DNA from: Candidatus Sericytochromatia bacterium
GTDB lineage: Bacteria; Cyanobacteriota; Sericytochromatia; S15B-MN24; JAQBPE01
Length of the DNA stretch: 64,000 nt
Direction: 5' to 3'
Assembly: GCA_035285325.1 (NCBI GenBank)
Contig: JAYKJB010000095.1
Coordinates: 1-64,000 of the forward strand
Part shown: positions 9,179-55,893 of the stretch, in pieces
How positions within the stretch are numbered: the stretch's first letter is position 1
Layout of the letters: every line of letters begins with the position of its first letter
Notes under the pieces: generated by a model
The model's input: the letters and a program-made list of their open reading frames with translations, nothing else
Database searches by the model: none
Told to the model about the DNA's origin: nothing
Position numbers and translations under genes: made by a program

Positions 9179-9327
9179 GGGGGCGCTTGACAGGCAACCC
9201 CGATCGCGTGCTAAGCACATGACAGCCACGCCACGCTCCGATGGCGGCACGACGCTCGTTCGTGACCGTAGGACGTATGCGCCCCCGGCGCGCCCTGCCC
9301 GCTTGTCTGACACGAGGAGCCTTTGCG

Positions 9328-10377
9328 ATGTCCCATCCGCCACTGCCGATTCTGGAGTTCATTCTCGGCAACTACAAGAACTTCAACGCCCGCGCCACGC
9401 GTGACGCCCTGATTGCCTACTGGCAACACATCGCCAACGGCGGCAAGATGTTCTGGGCCGTGGCCGGGGCGATGTCCTCCGCCCAACTCGGCATCACGCT
9501 GGCGCCCGCCATTCGGGCCGGCCTGATCCACGGGCTGTCCGTGACCGGCGCGAACCTGGAAGAGTCGCTCTTTCGTCTGGTCGCGCACGACAGCTACAAG
9601 GACTTCCCCGACTATCGCTATTTCACGAAGCAGGACGACACGCGCATCCTGGAAGACCGCATGCGCCGTGTCACCGACACCAGTATCCCGGAGGACGAAG
9701 CCTTCCGCGCGGTCGAATCGATCATCGTGCCGATGTGGAAGCAGGCCTCGTCACAGGGGGAACGGCGCTTCTGGCACGAATATTTCTACGAGCTGATCGC
9801 CGCGATCGACCCGGCCAGCTACGAGGGCAGTCCGGAAGCCTGCTGGTTGCTGGCCGCGGCCCAGGCGAAATTGCCCCTGGTGGTGCCCGGTTACGAGGAC
9901 TCGACCTTCGGCAACATCTTCGCCTCGTATGTGAAGACGGGTGAATGTTCCGCCAGCCTGGCCAAGTCGGGCATCGAGTACATGGCCGACTTCTACGACC
10001 GCTACGAGCGGTTGTCGGAGGGCGCCGGTTGCGGCTTCTTCCAGATCGGCGGCGGCATTGCCGGCGACTTCCCGATCTGCGTGGTGCCCTCGACCAAGTA
10101 CGATCTCGACCGCCCGGTCAAACCCTGGGCCTATTTCTGCCAGATCAGCGACTCGACCACCTCGTACGGTTCGTATTCGGGGGCCACTCCCAATGAGAAG
10201 ATCACCTGGGACAAGCTGACGGAAGACACCCCGATGTTCGTGATCGAGTCGGATGCCACGATCGTGGCCCCGCTCATGCTGAAGGCCCTGCTGGAATGTC
10301 AGGCCCATCCAGAAACGGCCCGTGCGCTGATCGAACGCCACCTCGGCGAGGCGCAGACCACCCTCGCGCGGGTCTGA
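9328..10377 (+). CDS. Deoxyhypusine synthase-like protein
   Basis: A 349-residue homologue of deoxyhypusine/homospermidine synthases, NAD-dependent aminobutyl transferases that use spermidine. Visible family blocks include GKMFWAVAGAMSSAQLG, FPDYRYFTKQDD, KAKLPLVVPGYEDSTFGN, and GGGIAGDFPICVVPS followed by SDSTTSYGSYSGA. Bacteria lack eIF5A, so the likely role is polyamine (homospermidine) metabolism or an unknown modification; cyanobacteria are known to carry such homologues. The ATG at 9328 has ACGAGGAG eight bases upstream. The gene stands alone and converges on the helicase gene, with a terminator-like hairpin between them. Confidence 0.85.
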   Translation: MSHPPLPILEFILGNYKNFNARATRDALIAYWQHIANGGKMFWAVAGAMSSAQLGITLAPAIRAGLIHGLSVTGANLEESLFRLVAHDSYKDFPDYRYFTKQDDTRILEDRMRRVTDTSIPEDEAFRAVESIIVPMWKQASSQGERRFWHEYFYELIAAIDPASYEGSPEACWLLAAAQAKLPLVVPGYEDSTFGNIFASYVKTGECSASLAKSGIEYMADFYDRYERLSEGAGCGFFQIGGGIAGDFPICVVPSTKYDLDRPVKPWAYFCQISDSTTSYGSYSGATPNEKITWDKLTEDTPMFVIESDATIVAPLMLKALLECQAHPETARALIERHLGEAQTTLARV

Positions 10378-10478: not shown

Positions 10479-13400
10479 CTATCCGTCGAAACGCAGCAAG
10501 ACTTCCACCGGCCCGGCTTCAGCCCCAGCCTCCGGCTGGATGCCCAGGTCGGCCAGGGCTTCCCAGATCGGCGCCAGCGCACGGGCGGGGTCCCGGTAGA
10601 AGGCGCTTCCGCGCACCTGGCAGAAGCGCCAGCCCACTCGTTCCAGCACCGCCTGGCGGCGCTGCGCCGCCTCCCAGCGCGCCAGGCCGTGCCAGCGATC
10701 GCCTTCGCACGAAAGCGCCAGCCGGGCCCGCGCGCCCTCGACCACCAGGTCGATACGCTGGTTCCCGCTGCCCACGGCTTGCTGGGCCTGTACCCGGTAG
10801 CCGCGTTCGCTCAGGCGCCGGAAAACGTCCCGCTCCAGCTCGGACTCGCAGCGGGCTTCTCCGAGCTGCTCTGCGCCGGCTTTCTCCTCCGGTGTGAGGA
10901 AATGCTGGAGCAACTGGTGCCGCATGCAGGCGGGGTGCAGATGCTCCAGCCCCACCGAGTGGAAGAGCCAGACCTGGTCCCGCGCCCGGCTGGCCGCCAC
11001 ATTGAAGCGATTCTCGTCGGTACGCTTGGTCAAAGGCATGTTGCGGACATTTGGCGCGGCCACGAGCGACAGGAACATCACGTCGCGCTCGTCCCCCTGG
11101 AACGAATAGGCGTCCCCACAGACGATGCGTCGCTCCACCATTTCCCGCTCACCCAAGCGCTGGCGCAAGCGTTGCTCGATCAGCTGCGCCTGTTCCTTGC
11201 CCTGCAAGGCGATCACGCCCATGGTGCGATCCTCGTAGGCCGGGTCCTGGCAAAGCCGGACCACCGTCTCGACCAGCGCCTCGGCCTCCGGCAGGTTGAG
11301 CGAACGGGCCGTTCCGCCCTCCCGAATGCCATCGGGGACGTACACCGCCCGCAGCGGAGGGTCGAAGCGCTGCGAGCCCAGCGGCATCCGCAGGGGTTCC
11401 ACCACCCCCCCGTAAAACCGCTCGTTGCTGAAGCGGATGATCTCGGGCACGCAGCGAAAGTGCTCGCGCAGCATCAGGGTGCTCGCAAAGACCCGCACGG
11501 CCGTGTCGTACAGGCTGTTCTGCAAGGTGAACAGGTGGCGTTGCGGAATCCCTTGCAGATGACGCTCGATCAGCAGGTTGACCTCGCTCTGGTCTCGTCC
11601 GACGCCCTCCGGGCTGATCTGCTTGTCATCGCCCACGATGACGGCGCGCTCGGCCCGGAACAGGGCACTGATCGCGTTCAGGTCACACTGACTGCTCTCG
11701 TCGACAATCACCACGTCAAAGCGCTCACCATTCGGCTTGAGGTTCTCGACCACGCGATTGAGCGGCATGATCCAGACCGGCACGGCCCCCCGGCAGGTGT
11801 CCATCTCGCGGCGCGCGTGTTCGCGATGCCGGTCAGCGTACTTGCCGGTGCCCTTGCCGATCTTGCGAATGGTCTGCAACCAGGCCAGCAGGCCCCGCCG
11901 CTGGGCGGGGGTGGTGCGGCGAAGCTGGGCCAGCCAGGTGGTGGCGGCCACCAGGTCCCCGGTTAGCCGAGCGGTGATCCGCTGCACTTCGGCCAGACGG
12001 AGATGAATGACCTCCGGGGGCCGGCGGGCCAGATGCGTCTCCAGCAGCACATTGGCCTGGGCCCATTCCCAGGCCGCCCGCCAATCGCCTGGCAAGGAGA
12101 GGGCCTCCCCCCGGGCCGCGCGGGCCTCGAACTGGTGCATCCAGTTCGGCGCCGCCGCTTCCAGCCGGGCGCCCAGCGCGGTCAGTTCACTCAATTTGGG
12201 GGCCTGAGCAGCCAGTCGGACCAGGGCATCCCGCTCCCTTCCCCAACGGTTCAGGTCGCGCGCCGCCAGGGCCGCAGCAAGTGCCTCCCAGGCCGGATGA
12301 GGCTCGGGCTGGCGTGCGCCGGCTTCAAGCAAGGCGCGCCAGCCATCCAGGCTCGCGCGCGCGGATTGGGCTTGCAGGGTGTCTCGCAGGGCCAGCAGGC
12401 CGTCGTGCAAGACCTGTAACCAGGCCGGCTCGTGCCACTGGGCCAGGCCAGGCGGCGCGATCTCACACAGGGCGGACTGGATCGGCCGGACCACCTCACT
12501 CTCCCAGGCCACGGCGATCGCCAGGTGCTCCAGGTGCTCCGAAAGGGTGGCCAGGAAGCGCGGTGCCTCGGGTTCGAGCCACGGACCCTCGATGTCGCGC
12601 ATGTGGTTGTTCCACTTGATCGCCAGCTTGCGACAGGCCTCGCGATGAGCCAGCCAGGCCAGCAGCGCCTCGACCTCCTCGCGGGTGCGGGGCGGGGCGC
12701 CGTTGACCCGCAGCGGGGCGATCGCGGCCAGGGCGCTCTTGCCCGTGAAGTGACGGAACATGAAGCCGAGCCCTTCGCCCCGGCTGAGCTCGTCCCGCAC
12801 GAGTTGCAAGGCCGCTTGCACGGGGGCCGTATCGGCGTCGAGATCGCCGCTGAAGGCCCAGTCGCGCAGCTGCGTCTCGCTCTGGCGCAGGGCCGCGCGA
12901 CGCTCGCGCGCCGCCTCGAGCAAGCCGTGCCAGGCCTCCCCACCGCCATCGGGCTTGCTCACGTCGGCCATCACGGCGCGCAACCAGGGAGCCTGAAGCG
13001 GTTCGGCCCGTTCGAGCGCGCCCGCCACCCCCTGCAGGGCCTGCTGCACGTCCGAGAGGCCGACCGCCGGCAACTGCCAGCCGGTCAGGCGTTGGGTGCG
13101 CGCCTCGGCGCCGCGTTCGAAGGTGGTCAGGTGGTCCAGTAGTTCCGCCAGTGCCGGCGTGGTCGGCAGGCTCTCCAGCGCGGGGCGATGCAGGGCGGCG
13201 GCGCGGCGATCCTGCGGATCGATCTCGCCCAGCAAGGCCAGCCAGCGCGCCAGCTCGACCTCGTCCAGCGGCGGCGGGGAGCCCGGGTCCGGCTGGTCGG
13301 GCAACCAACCGAGCTCCGAGGCGTTGGCCTGCAGCCAGCGGGCCAGTTCCATCGGCGTGCGGGTCTGTCCGTGCCAGCTCAGTTCAGCGTGCTCGGCCTC

Positions 13401-15278
13401 GGCCGACTCCGCCAGTTCGCGGCGCAGTTCGGCCTGTTCCGTCTGCAACTGGGCCTGCTCCTCCCGCAGCGCCGCGATGCGGGCTTCGAGCGTCTCGATG
13501 CTGTCCGCGTCGAGCCGGTCGGCGATGCCGGTGATGGCCTCTTCCAGTTCCTTGACGGAACGCGAGTCGCCTTCCAGCAAGCTGACGCACAGCGGGGCGA
13601 TCGCCGGCACCTTCTCGCGCACCATGTCACCGATCACCCGCAAGGCCCGCTCGGTTTCACTGGTCACCAGCACGCGTTTGCCGTGCGCCAGCAGGTGGGC
13701 AATCAGGTTGACGATGGTGTGACTCTTGCCCGTCCCTGGAGGCCCCTGAACGACCACGCCACAATGCTGGGACAGGCGCCGCACGATCTCGCGCTGTTCC
13801 TCGTTCCAGGCCAGCGGGAAGAGCAGATCCTCCCCCACCGGGCGCCAGGCCTCGGCCGCGGCCGCGTCGGGGGTGGGCGGGGCCGCCGCCGTGATGGCCA
13901 GGACGGGGGCCGGCACCTCGGCCCCATTGCGCAGGGCCTCCGTCAGGCCCTTCAACTCAGCCTGCCACTGGCGACCGCCGCCACGGCGGACGAACAGCAC
14001 CGGCAGATCCCAGATGACCGGATGGGCCGCCAGCGGGCAATCGGCGCCGCCGACCGTGGTATCCGCCCGATAGGCCCCATCAGGGTCCAGGGTCTGGGCC
14101 AGTTCGCGATAAAAGGGCGCCGTCAGGGCAGAGTCCCAGGGGTCGAGCGGGCTTTCCTCGAAGGCCTGCTCCAGACGCACCAGGTGGGCCGGATTGGGCA
14201 CCGGGACCGCCGTCAGCATATCGAGTTCCAGCACGGTGCCGGCCAGCGCGGGCGCCAGGGTGAACACGCCGCGCTGCGCATCGAACTGCAGATCGACCCG
14301 GGTGGTCAGCACGGGACGGCGGATCTTCTGCCCCGCGACGCGCCAGGTCAGCAGCCCGTGCCCCATCACCAGCTCGATCGTCTCGCGCTCGCGCTGCAAG
14401 CGCTGGTAGAGGGCAAACAGCTGCCCGTAGAGTGCTTGCACCGCCCCGCGCTGCCCGGCGGCCTGGGCCCAGGGGCGCCAGGCGGTCTCGAGCCAGGCAT
14501 TCAAGGCAGCCACCCTCGCCGGGTCTGCCTCGAAGGAAACGCGCCGACGCGCCGCCAGGGCGGCCAGGTCGTCCACCTCCCAGGGCAACTCCACGGCGCT
14601 GGCAGCCACCCACTCGGCGTCGTAGGGCGGAGGCGCCAGCGAATCGTCATCGGCGTCCGGCTCGGACGCGGTGGGCAACGCGCTCCGCGCCGGCGCCGCC
14701 GCGCCGCTCAGTGCAGGCCCCTCGCCCGGCGCTCCGGCGGGCCAACCATCACGCTCAGAGGGCCCGCTCGCCTCGCTGTCGGGGCGAGGGCCGGCGGGCA
14801 GCGCCGCGTGGCCGTCCCCCGGCAAGCCCGTCTCCGATGCGGCGGGGGCCTCTTCGTCCGTCATCGGGCCCACGTCAGAGGCCGGCGCCGCGGCGGCGAT
14901 CGCCTGAACCGCGACCGCGGCCCGCTCGACCGCCGCCGTGCTGTGCTGGATCCAGTGCGCCTCCTCGGCCGGCGTCAGCAGGTTGCGCAGCGGGTGCGGC
15001 AGCGGCTCCCGCCGGGGATCATCCCAGGGCTGCATCAACCAGTCGGCCAGTTCGGCGGGCGGCGGGGGAGCCGCCGGTACCACCTGCTTGTGCACCTCCA
15101 GCCAGGCCGCTTGCTCCGGGGGATGCAGCACGCAGCCCTCACCAACCGGCAGGTCGCGCCACCACCAGAGCGGCTCCCGGCTCTCGCGAAGGTCCACCGC
15201 GACCGGGGCCTCCAGATTTTTCAGGGCCAGCAGGTATTCCACCAGCTTGAGGGCTTGTTGACGCGGTTCCAGCGACAT
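10479..15278 (-). CDS. Large SF1 helicase with C-terminal Vsr/DUF559-like nuclease domain
   Basis: A 1599-residue UPF1-like superfamily 1 helicase. Motif I GPPGTGKSHT is near residue 510, motif II VDESSQCD near 1190, followed by VGDDKQISPEG, and the C-terminal helicase motifs include YSFQGDERDVMFLS and RFNVAASRAR. About 800 residues containing coiled coils (for example 600-660) separate motifs I and II. The last 110 residues (GYRVQAQQAVGSGNQRIDLVVEG, then WRFCQVRG) resemble the very-short-patch/DUF559 endonuclease fold that ends many such helicases. The ATG at 15278 has GGGAGG eight bases upstream. The domain order recalls helicase-Vsr proteins reported in defence islands; a repair role is equally possible. 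It runs downstream of the unknown gene at 15483. Confidence 0.85.
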   Translation of the reverse strand: MSLEPRQQALKLVEYLLALKNLEAPVAVDLRESREPLWWWRDLPVGEGCVLHPPEQAAWLEVHKQVVPAAPPPPAELADWLMQPWDDPRREPLPHPLRNLLTPAEEAHWIQHSTAAVERAAVAVQAIAAAAPASDVGPMTDEEAPAASETGLPGDGHAALPAGPRPDSEASGPSERDGWPAGAPGEGPALSGAAAPARSALPTASEPDADDDSLAPPPYDAEWVAASAVELPWEVDDLAALAARRRVSFEADPARVAALNAWLETAWRPWAQAAGQRGAVQALYGQLFALYQRLQRERETIELVMGHGLLTWRVAGQKIRRPVLTTRVDLQFDAQRGVFTLAPALAGTVLELDMLTAVPVPNPAHLVRLEQAFEESPLDPWDSALTAPFYRELAQTLDPDGAYRADTTVGGADCPLAAHPVIWDLPVLFVRRGGGRQWQAELKGLTEALRNGAEVPAPVLAITAAAPPTPDAAAAEAWRPVGEDLLFPLAWNEEQREIVRRLSQHCGVVVQGPPGTGKSHTIVNLIAHLLAHGKRVLVTSETERALRVIGDMVREKVPAIAPLCVSLLEGDSRSVKELEEAITGIADRLDADSIETLEARIAALREEQAQLQTEQAELRRELAESAEAEHAELSWHGQTRTPMELARWLQANASELGWLPDQPDPGSPPPLDEVELARWLALLGEIDPQDRRAAALHRPALESLPTTPALAELLDHLTTFERGAEARTQRLTGWQLPAVGLSDVQQALQGVAGALERAEPLQAPWLRAVMADVSKPDGGGEAWHGLLEAARERRAALRQSETQLRDWAFSGDLDADTAPVQAALQLVRDELSRGEGLGFMFRHFTGKSALAAIAPLRVNGAPPRTREEVEALLAWLAHREACRKLAIKWNNHMRDIEGPWLEPEAPRFLATLSEHLEHLAIAVAWESEVVRPIQSALCEIAPPGLAQWHEPAWLQVLHDGLLALRDTLQAQSARASLDGWRALLEAGARQPEPHPAWEALAAALAARDLNRWGRERDALVRLAAQAPKLSELTALGARLEAAAPNWMHQFEARAARGEALSLPGDWRAAWEWAQANVLLETHLARRPPEVIHLRLAEVQRITARLTGDLVAATTWLAQLRRTTPAQRRGLLAWLQTIRKIGKGTGKYADRHREHARREMDTCRGAVPVWIMPLNRVVENLKPNGERFDVVIVDESSQCDLNAISALFRAERAVIVGDDKQISPEGVGRDQSEVNLLIERHLQGIPQRHLFTLQNSLYDTAVRVFASTLMLREHFRCVPEIIRFSNERFYGGVVEPLRMPLGSQRFDPPLRAVYVPDGIREGGTARSLNLPEAEALVETVVRLCQDPAYEDRTMGVIALQGKEQAQLIEQRLRQRLGEREMVERRIVCGDAYSFQGDERDVMFLSLVAAPNVRNMPLTKRTDENRFNVAASRARDQVWLFHSVGLEHLHPACMRHQLLQHFLTPEEKAGAEQLGEARCESELERDVFRRLSERGYRVQAQQAVGSGNQRIDLVVEGARARLALSCEGDRWHGLARWEAAQRRQAVLERVGWRFCQVRGSAFYRDPARALAPIWEALADLGIQPEAGAEAGPVEVLLRFDG

Positions 15279-15379
15279 GCACGAACCTCCCGGCTTGGAG
15301 CGACACGTTGGCTTGTGCCCTTTCCATTCGCCTGGAGGCAAGCGGAAAGCGCGCCCGGATCATAGCGCGCGCAGGGCCC

Positions 15380-20550: not shown

Positions 20551-21447
20551 TCAGAGCGTTCCCACATAGGCCGGAAGGCGAGTGGTGGCGCCAGTCGAAG
20601 GGGCCGTTTCCGCCTCCGCTTCCTCTTCCGCGCGGCGAACCGGAGCGGTCCATTTGACGTTCCAGACCAAACCGACCACTTCCAGCGCCTTGATCAGGTA
20701 ACTGGTCAGGTCGACCTCCCACCACACCAGGCCCTGCGGCGCGCGAGTTTGGCAGGCGTGGTGATTGTTGTGCCAGCCCTCGCCGAGTGCCAGCAGCCCG
20801 ATCGGCCAGAAATTACGGCTGCCGTCGCGCGTCTCGGTGCGCCGGTAACCGAACATATGGCAGAGCGAATTGACCGAGAAGGTCACGTGATAGACGGCGA
20901 TCATCGGCACGTAGAGGCACCAGAGCAGGCCGCCAAGCCCCAGGAAGTAAGCCAACAACCCGGCCACGATCAGGTGCGGCAGAAAGAAGGTGACGCGGCC
21001 GGTGAAGTGCCGCAGGTAGGGCTGCGCCTCCTCCACGTCACGGGCCATGCGCCGCATCTGCATCTCGTCCTCACCGGGGTTCCGAAAGATCCAGCCCATG
21101 TGGGCGTAGAAGAAACCATCCTGTTTGGGGCTGTGCACATCCTCGCTCTGATCCGACTTGAGGTGATGCCAGCGGTGGTGGCCCACCCAGTTGATCGGAT
21201 CGCCTTGCTGCCCCACCGACGTGGCCAGGAAGAAGAAGAACTTGATCGCGTGATGGGTGTCGAAGGCCCGGTGCGTCAGGCAACGATGCAAATAGAAGGT
21301 GGTGCCAAAGCCCATCCAGAGATACATCGCCACCATGACGGGCAGGTAGCGAAATTCGAACGGGAAGGCCAGGGCAGCCGCCGCAAGGAGGTGGAAGCCA
21401 CTCAAAAAGGCGACAACCAGCCAGTTGATCGGGTGGTGGCGAAACAT
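20551..21447 (-). CDS. Fatty acid desaturase (acyl-lipid/acyl-CoA delta-9 type)
   Basis: A 298-residue membrane di-iron desaturase that introduces a cis double bond into acyl chains. The three histidine boxes are intact: HRCLTH at 54-59, HHRWHH at 90-95 and HNNHH at 226-230. Four hydrophobic segments are arranged as in DesC/Ole1-like enzymes. Residues after about 280 form a short acidic tail. GGGGGA precedes the ATG by five bases. It is divergent from clpS. It could supply unsaturated acyl chains for the lipoxygenase encoded about 32 kb away, but no linkage is shown by the sequence. Confidence 0.92.
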   Translation of the reverse strand: MFRHHPINWLVVAFLSGFHLLAAAALAFPFEFRYLPVMVAMYLWMGFGTTFYLHRCLTHRAFDTHHAIKFFFFLATSVGQQGDPINWVGHHRWHHLKSDQSEDVHSPKQDGFFYAHMGWIFRNPGEDEMQMRRMARDVEEAQPYLRHFTGRVTFFLPHLIVAGLLAYFLGLGGLLWCLYVPMIAVYHVTFSVNSLCHMFGYRRTETRDGSRNFWPIGLLALGEGWHNNHHACQTRAPQGLVWWEVDLTSYLIKALEVVGLVWNVKWTAPVRRAEEEAEAETAPSTGATTRLPAYVGTL

Positions 21448-29471: not shown

Positions 29472-30830
29472 ATGGCAGCTCCCTTCAAGGCATATGACGT
29501 CCGCGGCATCTACGGCGAGGACGTGACCGAGGCCCTGGCCTACCAGCTTGGCCGGGCCTACGTGCAGTACACCGGCGCCCGCACCGTGGTGGTGGGACGG
29601 GACATGCGTCCGCACTCGGTGCCGCTGGAGCAGGAACTGATCCGGGGCCTGCGGGAAGGCGGCGCCGACGTGATCGGCATCGGCATGGCCTCGACCGACA
29701 TGATGTACTTCGCGGTGATCAACCTCGGGGTGGATGGTGGCGTGGCCGTGACGGCCTCGCACAACCCGGGGGAGTATAACGGGTTCAAGTTCGTGCGCGA
29801 GAAGGCCATCCCGATGGGCCTCGAAAGCGGCCTGGCCGAGTTGGAGGCGATCGTGCGTGGGGGCGAGTTCGCCCCGCCGGCCGCGACGCCCGGCGGCTAC
29901 CGGGAACAGCCCGTGCTGGACGCCTTCGTGGCCTGGATGCACGAGTTCGTCGATCCCAAAACGCTCGCGCCGCTCAAGGTGGTGATCGACGCCGGCAACG
30001 GCATGGGCGGACCGATCATGGAAAAGATGTTTCAGGGCTCCCCTGTGCAGGTGATTCCGCTCTTCTTCGAGCCGGATGGCACCTTCCCCAACCACGAGGC
30101 CAATCCGTTGCTGGAGGAGAACCGGGTCGACATGGTGGCCAAGGTGCGTGAAACCGGCGCCGACCTGGGCATCGGCCTGGACGGCGATTGCGACCGGGCC
30201 TTCTTCGTCGATGGCACGGGGCACTTCTGCGACGGCGACTTCATTCTGGGCCTGCTGGCCAAGCCCGTCCTGAAACGCCATCCCGGCGCTCGGGTCGTTT
30301 ACGACGTGCGCTGCAGTGATTACGTGCGAGACACGATCCAGGCCGGCGGCGGCGAGGCCCGTATGTGGAAGGTCGGTCACGCCTTCGCCAAGACCTACAT
30401 GCGTGAGCATCAGTGCGAGTTCGGCGGCGAGGTGAGCGGTCACTATTACTTCCGGCACAAGGACGCCTACTTCGACAGCGGCTGTCTGACCGCCCTGCTG
30501 CTGCTGAAAACGCTCTCCGACCAGGGTCAAAGCTTGGCGCAGGCCATGGAGGAAACCAAGCGCTACCACATCTCCGGCGAGATCAACTCGCGCGTGCAGG
30601 ACGCCGACGCGGTCATGGCAGCGGTCAAAACGGCTTATCAGGCCAAGGGCCGGCTGGTCGAGATCGATGGGCTGTCGATCATCGGCGAGGGCTGGTGGTT
30701 CAACATCCGCAAGAGCAACACCGAACCGCTGCTGCGCCTGAACTGCGAGGCAAAAACCCAGGAGGCCATGGAGCGCCTACGCGACGACCTGCTGGCCCAG
30801 ATTCGCGGCGGCGTGGGGGCCACCACCTGA
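29472..30830 (+). CDS. manB: Phosphomannomutase/phosphoglucomutase
   Basis: A 452-residue alpha-D-phosphohexomutase interconverting mannose (or glucose) 6- and 1-phosphate for nucleotide-sugar, LPS and exopolysaccharide synthesis. The four active-site elements are in order: phosphoserine loop TASHNPGEYNG, metal loop DGDCDRAFFVD, sugar loop GEVSGHYYF and phosphate loop RKSNTEPLLRLN. Length and the GEVSGHYYF motif are those of bacterial ManB/AlgC. GAGG lies before the ATG at 29472. Its nearest neighbours are envelope genes. Confidence 0.95.
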   Translation: MAAPFKAYDVRGIYGEDVTEALAYQLGRAYVQYTGARTVVVGRDMRPHSVPLEQELIRGLREGGADVIGIGMASTDMMYFAVINLGVDGGVAVTASHNPGEYNGFKFVREKAIPMGLESGLAELEAIVRGGEFAPPAATPGGYREQPVLDAFVAWMHEFVDPKTLAPLKVVIDAGNGMGGPIMEKMFQGSPVQVIPLFFEPDGTFPNHEANPLLEENRVDMVAKVRETGADLGIGLDGDCDRAFFVDGTGHFCDGDFILGLLAKPVLKRHPGARVVYDVRCSDYVRDTIQAGGGEARMWKVGHAFAKTYMREHQCEFGGEVSGHYYFRHKDAYFDSGCLTALLLLKTLSDQGQSLAQAMEETKRYHISGEINSRVQDADAVMAAVKTAYQAKGRLVEIDGLSIIGEGWWFNIRKSNTEPLLRLNCEAKTQEAMERLRDDLLAQIRGGVGATT

Positions 30831-32424: not shown

Positions 32425-33090
32425 GTGCCCCTTTCGAAGCTTCCCTCACCGCTGTGCCGGCCGCTCCGACTCCTCAGTGGATGGGCGCTGACCATCTCCA
32501 TGCTGGCGACTCCAGCCTTGGCGGCGGGCGGGTCCTCGGCCTTGTTCGACACCAAGGTCCGCCGCATCGACGGCAAAACGACCACCCTGGCGCCCTACAG
32601 CGGCAAGGTGCTGTTGATTGTCAACACCGCCTCGCGCTGCGGCTACACCGGTCAGTACGAGGGCCTGCAAGCCCTGCACCAGCGCTACGCCAAGCAAGGC
32701 CTGGCCGTGCTGGGCTTTCCGTCGAATGACTTTCTGGGCCAAGAGCCCGGCAGCAATCAGGAGATTGCGAGCTTTTGCACGCGCGAATACGGGGTGACCT
32801 TCGACATGTTCGAGAAGGCCCCCGTGACGGGCGATGCGATCCAGCCCCTGTTCGCCTGGCTGACGGCCCAGAGCAGCCCGCAAGTGGAGGAAGGTCCCGT
32901 GCGCTGGAACTTCGAGAAGTTCGTGGTCGACCGCAGCGGCCGGGTGACCGCCCGCTTCCGCTCCAGCACCACGCCGGATGACCCCGCGCTGAAAGCGGCC
33001 CTCGAGTCGGCGCTGAACCATCGTCCGCGCTGCCCCGAGCCTCAGTGGCGCCCCAAGGGCGCCCGTTCGACCGCCCCCGCAAAACCCTGA
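32425..33090 (+). CDS. Glutathione peroxidase family protein, exported
   Basis: A 221-residue thiol peroxidase that reduces hydroperoxides. The catalytic Cys lies in NTASRCGYTGQYEGL, with FPSNDFLGQEPGSNQEI carrying the conserved Gln/Asn region and WNFEKFVVD the Trp-Asn. A signal peptide (MLATPALAAG) precedes the domain, so it acts in the periplasm, where lipid hydroperoxides may be its substrate. It starts with GTG at 32425 after GGAGGAA. The C-terminal 25 residues are a basic, proline-rich extension. Confidence 0.92.
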   Translation: MPLSKLPSPLCRPLRLLSGWALTISMLATPALAAGGSSALFDTKVRRIDGKTTTLAPYSGKVLLIVNTASRCGYTGQYEGLQALHQRYAKQGLAVLGFPSNDFLGQEPGSNQEIASFCTREYGVTFDMFEKAPVTGDAIQPLFAWLTAQSSPQVEEGPVRWNFEKFVVDRSGRVTARFRSSTTPDDPALKAALESALNHRPRCPEPQWRPKGARSTAPAKP

Positions 33091-52178: not shown

Positions 52179-53135
52179 ATGCCGCCCGTGATTCGCAATC
52201 TCGTGTTCCAAGGTGGAGGCGTGAAGGGTTCCGCCTACGCCGGTGCCATCAACGTGCTGGCCAGGCACGGCTGGCTCGATCAGGTCGAGAACGTCGCCGG
52301 CACCTCGGCCGGTGCCATCACCGCCTGCATGCTGGCGATCGGCGCGGGGCCGGAAGGGCTGATGCGCTCGGTGCGCGAGACCGACTTCGGCTCGTTTCTC
52401 GACACCAGCTGGAACATCTTCAGCGAGGTGGAGCGCCTGATCCGCCATTTCGGTGTGGCGCCCGGCAAGCATTTCTCAGACCTGCTCGGGGATGAGATCG
52501 CGCGCTATACCGGCGATCGTCAGACCACGCTCGGGCAACTGCGGGCCCGGGCCGAGGCGGAACCGGGCCGCTTCCACGACCTCTACATCGTGGCCTCCAA
52601 CCTGACCCGTCAGCGCGCCCAGGTGCTCTGCGCCGACAATCACCCCGACATGCCGATCTGGCAGGCGGTGCGCACCTCCATGAGCATCCCGTTCATCTTC
52701 GAACCGGTGCGACTCAACGACGAGTACTACGTCGACGGCGGGATGTCCTGGAATTTCCCGATCGACCTGTTCGACCACCCCGAGTTGCACGAGGCGCATC
52801 CCCACGGGGGCCACCCCCGTTCGGAAGAGACGCTCGGCTTCGTGCTCGAACCGAAGAACCTGGCCGAGGCCGGCGTGCGGGACTGGACCTCGCTGCCGGG
52901 GGACACGCACAACGTGGTGGCCTACGCGGGCACCCTGATGGGCTTCATGATGGAGACGGCCAACCTGGAGCACACCCATCCGGAGGATCTTGCGCGCACG
53001 ATCTTCATCAATGACTGCGGGGTGCGGGCCACCGACTTCAAGGCCCCCCCTGCCGTGATCCAGCGCCTGATCGACAGTGGCGCGGCGGCCGCCGAGGCCT
53101 ATGTGGCGGCCCGCAAGGCCGAGGTGCCGGCATGA
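52179..53135 (+). CDS. Patatin-like phospholipase
   Basis: A 318-residue acyl hydrolase that should release fatty acids from membrane lipids. The oxyanion block QGGGVKGSAYAGA, nucleophile GTSAG (Ser43) and catalytic Asp186 in DGG are intact. There is no signal peptide. GAGGG precedes the ATG by eight bases. The stop overlaps the next start as ATGA, so the three genes are translated together. Its product fatty acids would be natural substrates for the lipoxygenase two genes down. Confidence 0.9.
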   Translation: MPPVIRNLVFQGGGVKGSAYAGAINVLARHGWLDQVENVAGTSAGAITACMLAIGAGPEGLMRSVRETDFGSFLDTSWNIFSEVERLIRHFGVAPGKHFSDLLGDEIARYTGDRQTTLGQLRARAEAEPGRFHDLYIVASNLTRQRAQVLCADNHPDMPIWQAVRTSMSIPFIFEPVRLNDEYYVDGGMSWNFPIDLFDHPELHEAHPHGGHPRSEETLGFVLEPKNLAEAGVRDWTSLPGDTHNVVAYAGTLMGFMMETANLEHTHPEDLARTIFINDCGVRATDFKAPPAVIQRLIDSGAAAAEAYVAARKAEVPA

Positions 53136-53935
53136 CCGGGGCAAAGCCTTCGCTCGCGATTCTGCGGCGCTGGCGCTTGCCAGCGTTTGCCTATGCCGAA
53201 CTGGGCCTGGGTCTCACGGTGGCGATCGCCGGCGTGTTGCACACGCTGGCGGCCTTTCCCAGCGAGTGGCACGAACTGTCGCTGCGCGCGCATCACGGCG
53301 TGGCCCTGCTCGGGGCGGTCGTGACCCTGCGCGCGGTGGCGGAAGTCGGGGTTTACACCCAGTTCGCCGGGGAGTGGTCCAAGCTGGAAGCCGGCTTCTG
53401 GGCTCGTTTTCACCACTGGCTGGCGGGTCCGCATGCAGAGGGCCTGGTCGGGCTGCTGGTGATCCTGTCCGGGTTCGGCGAAGCCTACCGTCACGCCGTG
53501 AACGACCTGCCACACGAGGGTCACTGGCACTGGGGCCTGGTGATTTTCGGGCTGACCATGCTGGCCCGCACCGCCTATGACTTGCTGGAAGGCCTGGAAA
53601 AACTGGAGCATTCCCGGGTGCCGACCTGGGTGCATCGTCTGGCTGCTTTGGCCGAGCGGCCAGCCGTCCAGCTGGTGGTGGCGGTGCTGCTGGTGACCCT
53701 GGCCGGCCTGGAACTGGCGTTTCCCTTGCCGGTAGAAGCCCAGGAACTGGGTGGCGCGGCGGAAGGGGCCGGCGCGGCGACAGGCCCCCACGGCATGGGC
53801 CTGCTGGGCGGGGTCGCCCTGACGCGCGCCCTACCCGACTTGATCAAGGGCAGCCGGCTGGCTGCCAGCGGAATCCAGCACGCGCGCCACCACGCCCCCC
53901 CGGAGCCCCACCAGCCCCCTGAGGCCGTCTGATGC
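53132..53935 (+). CDS. Unknown multi-pass membrane protein in the lipoxygenase operon
   Basis: A 267-residue protein, 266 by its listed coding length, with five or so hydrophobic helices in residues 18-190 and a Pro/His-rich C-terminus ending PEPHQPPEAV. Histidines inside or near helices (HHGVAL, FHHWLAGPH, HEGHWHWGL) could bind metal or haem, but no family is recognised. It starts within the patatin stop (ATGA) and its own stop overlaps the lipoxygenase ATG, which argues for a joint function such as lipid transport or redox partner. Confidence 0.65.
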
Positions 53936-55893
53936 CACCGACCGAGCCCTCGCTGCCTGCCCTGAGCCGGGCTCTGGAACGCCTGAGCCCGGAAGGGCGC
54001 CAGCAGCTGGCGCAGTGGCTGGATACCCACCATCCGCCTGAGAGCGGCGAGCCGATGCACCAGGTGACGGGCCGTCTGGTCTTCCAGGACTGGAAGCCGG
54101 GCATCACGCCCGCGCCGCTGCATCATTTCAGCTTGCAGGTACGCGAGCGCCATGCGCTGGGCGGCTCGGTCCTGCTGGCCGAGGGCGAATCGGACCTGGA
54201 CGGGGCCTTCGTGCTCTCGTTCGCGGCACCGGCGCACACCCGGCATCCGGTGGAGTTGCGCGTTGTCGAGCAACAAGAGGTCTTCGGTCCGCACGGTGAG
54301 GCGACATGGCAGCCCCACGAGGTGCATACCGTCCAGCTGGGGCAGGACCTCGCGGCGACCATCGAACTGGGCACGATCGCGGTGCCGTACTGGCCCTACA
54401 CCTACGACAGTCCGCTGCCGCGCGTGCTGGTGCCGACCGGGGCCGAGCCTCCACAGGATTACGCGCGCGGCCGCAAGACCGCGCTGCTCAAGACCATGGC
54501 CGAATACGGCCTGATCCGCACCCGGCACCAGGTGGCCCACAAGCTCTCGGCCCACCTGCCCCACCTGACGACCATCCAGCGCGATTACCCGGAAAACCGC
54601 ACGCTGCACCTGGAAAAGCAGTCACCAGGGCTGACTCGCTCGGATGCCTACTTCGTCGACCGCCTTCTGAACGGTCTGAACCCTTGCCTGCCCGTGGGGG
54701 ACACGCGCTACCCGGGGGAGTGGCGGGTCGGGTTCAACTGGGACGCCTGCGAGATGGACGGTGTGCACACCTTGCCCAACGCCGATGCCTGGTTCGTGCC
54801 GGACGGTGAGACGCTGCGGCTGACGCGCCTGCGCATCCAGCTGCGCGAACCGGGCGCGACGGCCCCGTTCGGGCCGCTACAACCCGAACGCCTGCTGACC
54901 CCTGCCGATGGTGCCGACTGGCAGCGGGCCAAGCGCCTGTTTCGCTGCGCCTGGGTGTTGCACGGCCAGATCGTGGCCCACCTGGCCGATTCCCATCTGA
55001 ACGTGGAGCAGTACGCGGTGGCCGCCTACCGCAACCTGCGGCGCAGCCCCCTGCGACGGCTGCTGTTCCCCCATCTCAAGGAGGTGGCGGTGATCAACCA
55101 CGGGGGGAGCGACCTGATCTTCGGCGAACGTGGTTATGTGTCCGCGGCGTCCGCGCTGACCAGCCGCGCGGTCGATGCGCTGTTCGTGGAGGCGCTGGGC
55201 CGGCTGGACTGGAAGGGCTGGGAACCGCGTCGGCCGCTGGTGCCGCAGCACACCTTCGCGCAGGCGGCGCGCCTCTACTGGGAGGTGCTCACCCGCCACG
55301 TGGCGGAATTTCTGGAGACGCATCGCGAGGCGATCCTGGCCAACTGGCCGGAGCTGCGCCGCATGTCGGATGACATGGTGCGGCACAGCGTGCCGGCCGT
55401 GCCCCCCTTGCAGGTCCCTCACGACGTGGTGCTCGATGCGGGCGAACGGGGGGATGTCACGAGCCCCCGTGCGGTGATCGATGGCGTGACGCGCGCCGTA
55501 CGACCCCTCACGCAGACGGACGCGCCGGCGGCGGGCGAATGGGACGACCTCGCGCAGTGGTGCCGCTACGTGATCTACCACGCGACCTTCTTCCACGCTT
55601 GGGCCAACGATCGCCAGCACGATGACGGCGGCGAACTACGCTATGCGGCGCTCAGCCTGCGCGAGGGGGGCTGGGGCGACGAGGCCGACGAGGCGATCGC
55701 CCAGTCGCCCATGGAAGCCACGGATCAGCTGTTCTGGGCCATGTTCCTGCAGCACACGGGCTATGGCTACATCCTGCAAAATGAAGACCACGACATCCCC
55801 CATCGCTTTGTGGAGCTACTCGGAGAACGCGCGGACGCCTTTCGCGCCGTGGGCTTCGAACCGAACACGATCCGCTCGCGCATCAACATCTGA
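53932..55893 (+). CDS. Lipoxygenase
   Basis: A 653-residue iron dioxygenase that would add O2 to polyunsaturated fatty acids. All five iron ligands are visible by motif: His350 and His355 (VAHLADSHLNVEQ), His555 and Asn559 (FHAWANDRQ) and the C-terminal Ile653 (RSRINI). The first 220 residues include a beta-sandwich-like domain (about 40-145) in place of the usual PLAT and a GRLVFQDWKPG opening. It is shorter than plant enzymes and close to bacterial ones. Start ATG overlaps the preceding stop. No signal peptide. Bacterial lipoxygenases are uncommon, and an operon with a patatin is notable. Confidence 0.88.
   Translation: MPPTEPSLPALSRALERLSPEGRQQLAQWLDTHHPPESGEPMHQVTGRLVFQDWKPGITPAPLHHFSLQVRERHALGGSVLLAEGESDLDGAFVLSFAAPAHTRHPVELRVVEQQEVFGPHGEATWQPHEVHTVQLGQDLAATIELGTIAVPYWPYTYDSPLPRVLVPTGAEPPQDYARGRKTALLKTMAEYGLIRTRHQVAHKLSAHLPHLTTIQRDYPENRTLHLEKQSPGLTRSDAYFVDRLLNGLNPCLPVGDTRYPGEWRVGFNWDACEMDGVHTLPNADAWFVPDGETLRLTRLRIQLREPGATAPFGPLQPERLLTPADGADWQRAKRLFRCAWVLHGQIVAHLADSHLNVEQYAVAAYRNLRRSPLRRLLFPHLKEVAVINHGGSDLIFGERGYVSAASALTSRAVDALFVEALGRLDWKGWEPRRPLVPQHTFAQAARLYWEVLTRHVAEFLETHREAILANWPELRRMSDDMVRHSVPAVPPLQVPHDVVLDAGERGDVTSPRAVIDGVTRAVRPLTQTDAPAAGEWDDLAQWCRYVIYHATFFHAWANDRQHDDGGELRYAALSLREGGWGDEADEAIAQSPMEATDQLFWAMFLQHTGYGYILQNEDHDIPHRFVELLGERADAFRAVGFEPNTIRSRINI

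Follow-up and report, generated by a model that had tools for sequence, protein, structure and literature searches.

Positions 52179 to 55893 of a 64,000-nucleotide stretch of DNA from a Candidatus Sericytochromatia bacterium (GCA_035285325.1, contig JAYKJB010000095.1; here called the window) carry three overlapping plus-strand genes that probably encode an intracellular lipase-lipoxygenase module producing oxygenated polyunsaturated fatty acids (PUFAs), or oxylipins. The first gene (52179-53135) encodes a patatin-like phospholipase, or acyl hydrolase, of 318 residues, the second (53132-53932) an orphan histidine-rich membrane protein of 266 residues, and the third (53932-55893) a lipoxygenase (LOX) of 653 residues. 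A preliminary description of this DNA had given the overlaps as four and one bases, and both were verified: the patatin stop and the membrane-protein start share four bases in ATGA (53132-53135, plus strand; GAGG 7 nt upstream), and the membrane-protein stop and the LOX start share one in TGATG (53930-53934, plus strand; again with GAGG upstream). A GAGG(G) ribosome-binding motif lies about 6-10 nt 5' of each of the three starts, and the GC content at third codon positions, 0.82-0.88 in all three genes, is like that of their neighbours. We therefore regard the three frames as real genes and not as chance open reading frames (ORFs).

As judged from alignment and structure prediction, the third gene product is a full-length lipoxygenase of the Cyanothece 9R-LOX type. 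Its residues 40-653 align with the 9R-LOX of Cyanothece sp. PCC 8801 (5ek8; E 1.2e-142), the closest solved structure, and over this near-full-length alignment the two proteins are about 38% identical and share a beta-barrel domain, a catalytic domain and the same ligands. In the window protein, N-terminal helices precede the barrel (residues ~42-151) and the catalytic domain. Unlike the Cyanothece enzyme, the window LOX is translationally coupled to a patatin and an orphan membrane protein, and its long branch falls outside the cyanobacterial core. An AlphaFold2 model built from 17 sequences (pLDDT 79, pTM 0.82) matched 5ek8 in Foldseek with a TM score of 0.86. The Pfam family PF00305 fits this LOX branch poorly, which is why the protein only reaches the threshold region, scoring 23.5 bits where the cut-off is 23.6 (24.7 in a six-frame search). 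The iron ligands His350, His355, His555, Asn559 and Ile653, the last through its C-terminal carboxylate, stand in register with 5ek8 and 20 further relatives, which have Ile or Val as the final ligand. The five residues named earlier as ligands are thus in place, and His555 and Asn559, for which alignment had been proposed as a refuting test, fall inside the iron site. At the site that sets R or S stereochemistry (Ala/Gly), the local alignment is ambiguous.

Similarly, the first gene product carries the sequence motifs of a patatin-like phospholipase: the GGGxxG oxyanion loop (GGGVKG, residues 12-17), the GxSxG nucleophile motif (GTSAG, 41-45, with Ser43) and the DG[GA] aspartate (DGG, 186-188, with Asp186). 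The Ser/Asp dyad described as intact was recovered as Ser43/Asp186 in a PF01734 match of E 2.6e-36, and a search of the PDB found ExoU, VipD and PlpD as the nearest solved relatives. No signal peptide was seen in the patatin sequence and none is evident in the LOX, which would place the chemistry in the cytoplasm.

An argument for a functional link between the two enzymes comes from the gene neighbourhoods of related LOXs. When 84,980 species genomes were scanned, with patterns that favour close relatives so that more distant ones may exist, ten loci came up, all of them cyanobacterial and 36-39% identical to the window protein, and further relatives came from a sample of 386 genomes of the phylum. 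In trees the window LOX falls within this cyanobacterial clade, which is separated from the catalase-fused LOX clade with 100/100 support, and branches outside its two subclades. The clade is sporadic, being present in 12 of the 218 genomes of the Nostoc-type family. Its core subclade has 14 assessable loci (L022 begins at a contig end), and in 11 of them a lipase stands beside the LOX: ten are DUF2235/Tle1-like (PF09994), and one, directly downstream of the LOX in L030, is a class-3 lipase. No lipase lies beside the LOX in L021, L026 and L061. Many of the core loci have a cytochrome P450 gene lying between those for the lipase and the LOX. In four of the five genomes in which DUF2235 was counted (G029, G142, G104 and G190) there is a single copy, each time no more than about 4 kb from the LOX, and in the fifth (G381) one of two copies is near it; judged by position alone, such proximity in the five genomes would arise by chance with a probability of about 3e-14, an approximate value that takes no account of shared ancestry. 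Of two other genomes, G071 has no DUF2235 and G094 has one that is not near the LOX. In the separate, catalase-type LOX clade, L067 and L068 have two LOX genes followed by pieces of a class-3 lipase, and at the classical Nostoc-type LOX loci (L018-L020, L070-L079) a search limited to the lipase families sought found none of them. Both lipase folds found beside cyanobacterial LOX genes, DUF2235/Tle1-like and class-3, are unrelated to patatin. On the gene neighbourhoods, the link between lipase and LOX is recurrent with swapped folds, patatin fitting as a third, and what is conserved is function and not position. This pairing with exchanged lipases supports the idea that phospholipase and LOX work together.

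Two observations were made on these loci in passing. In Aphanizomenon flos-aquae FACHB-1287 (L025:8704-9722, one of the ten DUF2235 loci; also L097) stops split the DUF2235 lipase, intact in relatives, into several frames. In the tandem LOX arrangements L067:6071-12248 and L068:1253-7330 the first LOX has an N-terminal extension of about 420 residues, and the class-3 lipase pieces lie in two frames.

A putative PUFA source is encoded in the same genome. According to profile matches, the host genome encodes two PfaA/PfaC/PfaD PUFA synthases. For the one on contig C138 (L088:500-19487), the PfaA-type protein reaches 1480 bits with TIGR02813 (cut-off 1010) and PfaD 660 bits (cut-off 449); its PfaC-type protein combines four FabA domains with two ketosynthases. 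For the other, on C84 (L090/L091), the scores are 1454 bits for PfaA (cut-off 1010) and 634 bits for PfaD, and the remaining protein has three FabA domains. Next after the C138 set come a ketoacyl-synthase-III-like gene and a gene for an alpha/beta hydrolase; together with an AMP-ligase-like ORF found at the edge, we take these to be OleA, OleB and OleC, a putative arrangement for polyunsaturated hydrocarbons. These synthases are a better substrate source than the fatty-acid desaturase of the window (20551-21447), which had been proposed as the supplier together with an exported glutathione peroxidase as the remover of hydroperoxides. Both of those genes exist, the peroxidase (32425-33090) with a signal-peptide-like N-terminus; their connection to the operon, more than 19 kb away, found no support beyond the shared contig. 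An assignment of the window desaturase as a delta-12 enzyme was not established (116.7 against a cut-off of 400 for the NCBIfam DesA family). The strongest PF00487 match in the genome, on C11 (L084:4834-5922) next to a phosphopantetheinyl-transferase-like ORF, looks from its sequence like an AlkB-type alkane monooxygenase and not a desaturase.

From these elements we infer the activities of the enzymes, the order of their steps, their coupling in one pathway, the role of the membrane protein and a biological purpose. The patatin would cleave acyl chains off membrane phospholipid or another acyl ester, and the LOX would abstract a bis-allylic hydrogen and add O2 to give a hydroperoxide. Most likely both act on the same membrane PUFA lipids, supplied presumably by the host's own Pfa-type synthases, to yield an oxygenated fatty acid. 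The lipase could act first and hand the free acid to the LOX, or the LOX could act first on intact phospholipid and the patatin then release the product; esterified chains can serve as substrates for related LOXs, the Cyanothece enzyme among them. The membrane protein probably either tethers the reaction to the membrane or takes charge of the product, and this product may act in signalling or defence or be an intermediate.

The membrane protein itself has 18 histidines and, by hydropathy, about six hydrophobic helices predicted to span the membrane. It had been said to belong to no recognised family, and searches of Pfam (above cut-off), NCBIfam and PADLOC bore this out; among the 386 genomes of the phylum (the host's and 385 others) there is no credible homologue, the one weak match having internal stops. 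Its AlphaFold2 model is all-helical and unreliable (pLDDT 48). A motif G-x4-G-x5-R-x3-[DE] occurs three times, at G56, G135 and G221 in helices 2, 4 and 6, each copy with a His within the two residues before it. The triple was found in 0 of 20000 block shuffles, for a motif chosen post hoc; generic repeat tests were not significant, a gapless self-comparison lying within the shuffle range and a generic triple-motif count giving 32 against 28.7. The pattern is suggestive of a protein built of three transmembrane-hairpin repeats. Compared with MAPEG/FLAP, the eukaryotic partner of 5-LOX, there is no PF01124 match up to E 1, and that family has four transmembrane helices where the window protein is predicted to have about six, so that it does not qualify as a member. 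Membrane docking, passage of substrate or product, and conversion of the product are the candidate roles; we slightly favour product conversion by analogy, because the middle gene in the cyanobacterial loci is often a P450.

How does this reading fare against the distribution of the genes? The window corresponds to contig C95 in a genome of 3.8 Mb and 98.6% completeness. Contamination by a foreign contig was considered and rejected, since one gene of the window (29472-30830) shares 82%, 71% and 67% identity with its counterparts in family, order and class mates. The host class has no photosystem reaction-centre gene in 18 genomes, whereas such genes are present in three of six genomes sampled elsewhere in the phylum, and the class is therefore non-photosynthetic. 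Several points weigh against an oxylipin module. The 17 other genomes of the class lack this patatin, the membrane protein and the LOX alike, so that the operon was gained or kept only in the host, and the exact trio was found in no other genome searched. Thus, within the window, the overlap is all that ties patatin to LOX, the trio being from one genome. Furthermore, the sister subclade formed by L065, L094 and L095 has no recognised lipase, and neither a receptor nor an exporter for oxylipins came to light. The substrate specificity of the patatin cannot be predicted from its sequence, and an altered specificity of the LOX is possible given its long branch. Of the preliminary proposal of a bacterial oxylipin system, then, the enzyme assignments and the ligands stand, and the functional idea gains support from the lipase-LOX linkage in relatives, the PUFA synthases and a second LOX in the genome coupled to a catalase-like gene; the expected conservation of the three-gene neighbourhood in relatives was not borne out, the trio being known from the host genome only.

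In the three loci of the sister subclade the LOX gene is preceded by one for a MIF-type tautomerase and followed by one for a cyclase-like protein, joined in L094 and L095 by an SDR, a conserved neighbourhood of a distinct kind. Their LOXs carry His at the fourth ligand position and Ser at the fifth, giving an unusual iron site of His-His-His-His with a C-terminal Ser.

A more elaborate form of the proposal would be a self-contained, eicosanoid-like pathway in which the PUFA synthases supply long-chain PUFAs to the membrane lipids, a complex of patatin, membrane protein and LOX makes a specific oxylipin, the membrane protein is a FLAP-like presenter or a product-processing enzyme of a new family, and a catalase-LOX locus elsewhere in the genome makes a further product. 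We consider this doubtful. The locus in question, on contig C117 (L015:8277-11187, minus strand), holds a second LOX of 513 residues whose start is overlapped by a catalase-like ORF. The latter matches, at E 4e-34, the catalase domain found in a cyanobacterial catalase-LOX fusion, and roughly 6 kb from the pair lies a gene for a fatty-acid desaturase. The iron site of the second LOX is atypical, since Gly replaces the Asn ligand and the C-terminus is Tyr. A large multi-transmembrane ORF (11028-12662) precedes the catalase-like ORF and the second LOX.

The operon might instead serve lipid turnover or detoxification, the LOX opening PUFA lipids for removal or the patatin excising oxidised chains, with no signal involved. 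Patatins often work as lysophospholipases or remodelling enzymes, and a glutathione peroxidase and an AhpC/TSA-type protein are encoded on the same contig; yet these peroxidases lie 19-25 kb from the operon with no link to it, and a LOX produces hydroperoxides and does not remove them, which makes this reading unlikely. Rather improbable, too, is a fortuitous overlap in which patatin and LOX share only transcription and act on unrelated lipids: the confinement of the trio to one genome would fit it, but the recurrent linkage of LOXs of the same clade to lipases of unrelated folds argues against coincidence. Least convincing, and very improbable, is a membrane-damage or defence module, in which a trigger would turn patatin and LOX against the PUFA membrane of their own cell, in the way of the patatin effectors of CBASS (cyclic-oligonucleotide-based anti-phage signalling system), with lipid peroxidation added and a ferroptosis-like death. 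The patatin does weakly resemble PADLOC phospholipase effectors (E 4e-12), as it does NCBIfam CBASS_lipase (E 2e-5, well short of the cut-off), but this is the level at which patatins generally match one another. PADLOC has no model that fits the LOX or the membrane protein. CBASS requires a cyclase and an effector in one operon, and next to this operon there is neither a cyclase nor a sensor nor any other defence gene. The cyanobacterial relatives, moreover, pair LOX with P450 and lipase in the manner of biosynthetic clusters.

Taking up the lipase-lipoxygenase module again, its closest counterparts in organization are the cyanobacterial DUF2235-P450-LOX loci (L023, L024, L027, L029, L060, L062 and L063), which likewise have the lipase first and the LOX last on the same strand, with LOXs of the same clade. 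They differ in their lipase fold and in having a P450, sometimes with an NTF2-like DUF6841 protein, where the window has its membrane protein. By gene content the window operon, with neither a PF09994 lipase nor a P450, is no member of that cluster type, and the likeness may be functional. Cyanobacterial catalase-LOX fusions (L017 type) also tie fatty-acid oxygenation to a second oxylipin enzyme, and the host's catalase-LOX locus resembles them; in contrast, the window operon has no catalase domain and its LOX belongs to a different clade. LoxA of Pseudomonas aeruginosa (4g32, 5ir5), a secreted enzyme, is a remote relative at about 14% identity. Myxobacterial LOXs (Enhygromyxa salina 8x8f; Myxococcus fulvus) are further examples from non-photosynthetic bacteria, though of another lineage and with 16% identity.

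Oxylipins act as quorum signals in P. aeruginosa through a diol synthase operon and OdsR (PMC6377657), a case of bacterial fatty-acid oxygenation in which unrelated diol-synthase enzymes make the signal. Myxobacterial PUFA synthases are known (PMC6731297), and the paper on the M. fulvus LOX makes no mention of a phospholipase (PMC6612559). The same source estimates that bacterial lipoxygenases occur in fewer than 0.5% of sequenced species (PMC6612559). We found no described lipase-LOX operon among the open-access papers searched, most subscription journals lying outside the search. Natural substrates and purposes of bacterial LOXs are mostly unknown, and the lipase neighbours suggest that the whole clade uses fatty acids released from esters; the host PUFA synthases offer a source of PUFAs in a bacterium without photosynthesis. 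Coupling of phospholipase and LOX is the core logic of oxylipin signalling in eukaryotes, of which this operon would be a compact and testable bacterial counterpart.

Around the operon lie a lipoprotein-like ORF, an ABC transporter and a ParB-like protein, and a scan for promoters and terminators gave nothing convincing adjoining it. A plasmid collection searched with LOX and membrane protein gave no match, and no relative was found in viral contigs. Elsewhere in the window, a bacterial protein of the deoxyhypusine-synthase family is encoded at 9241-10377 (plus strand; PF01916, E 6e-34), and a superfamily 1 helicase of 1620 residues at 10479-15341 (minus strand) has a C-terminal MTES_1575 nuclease domain and resembles the candidate anti-phage protein PDC-S37 (E 1e-64).

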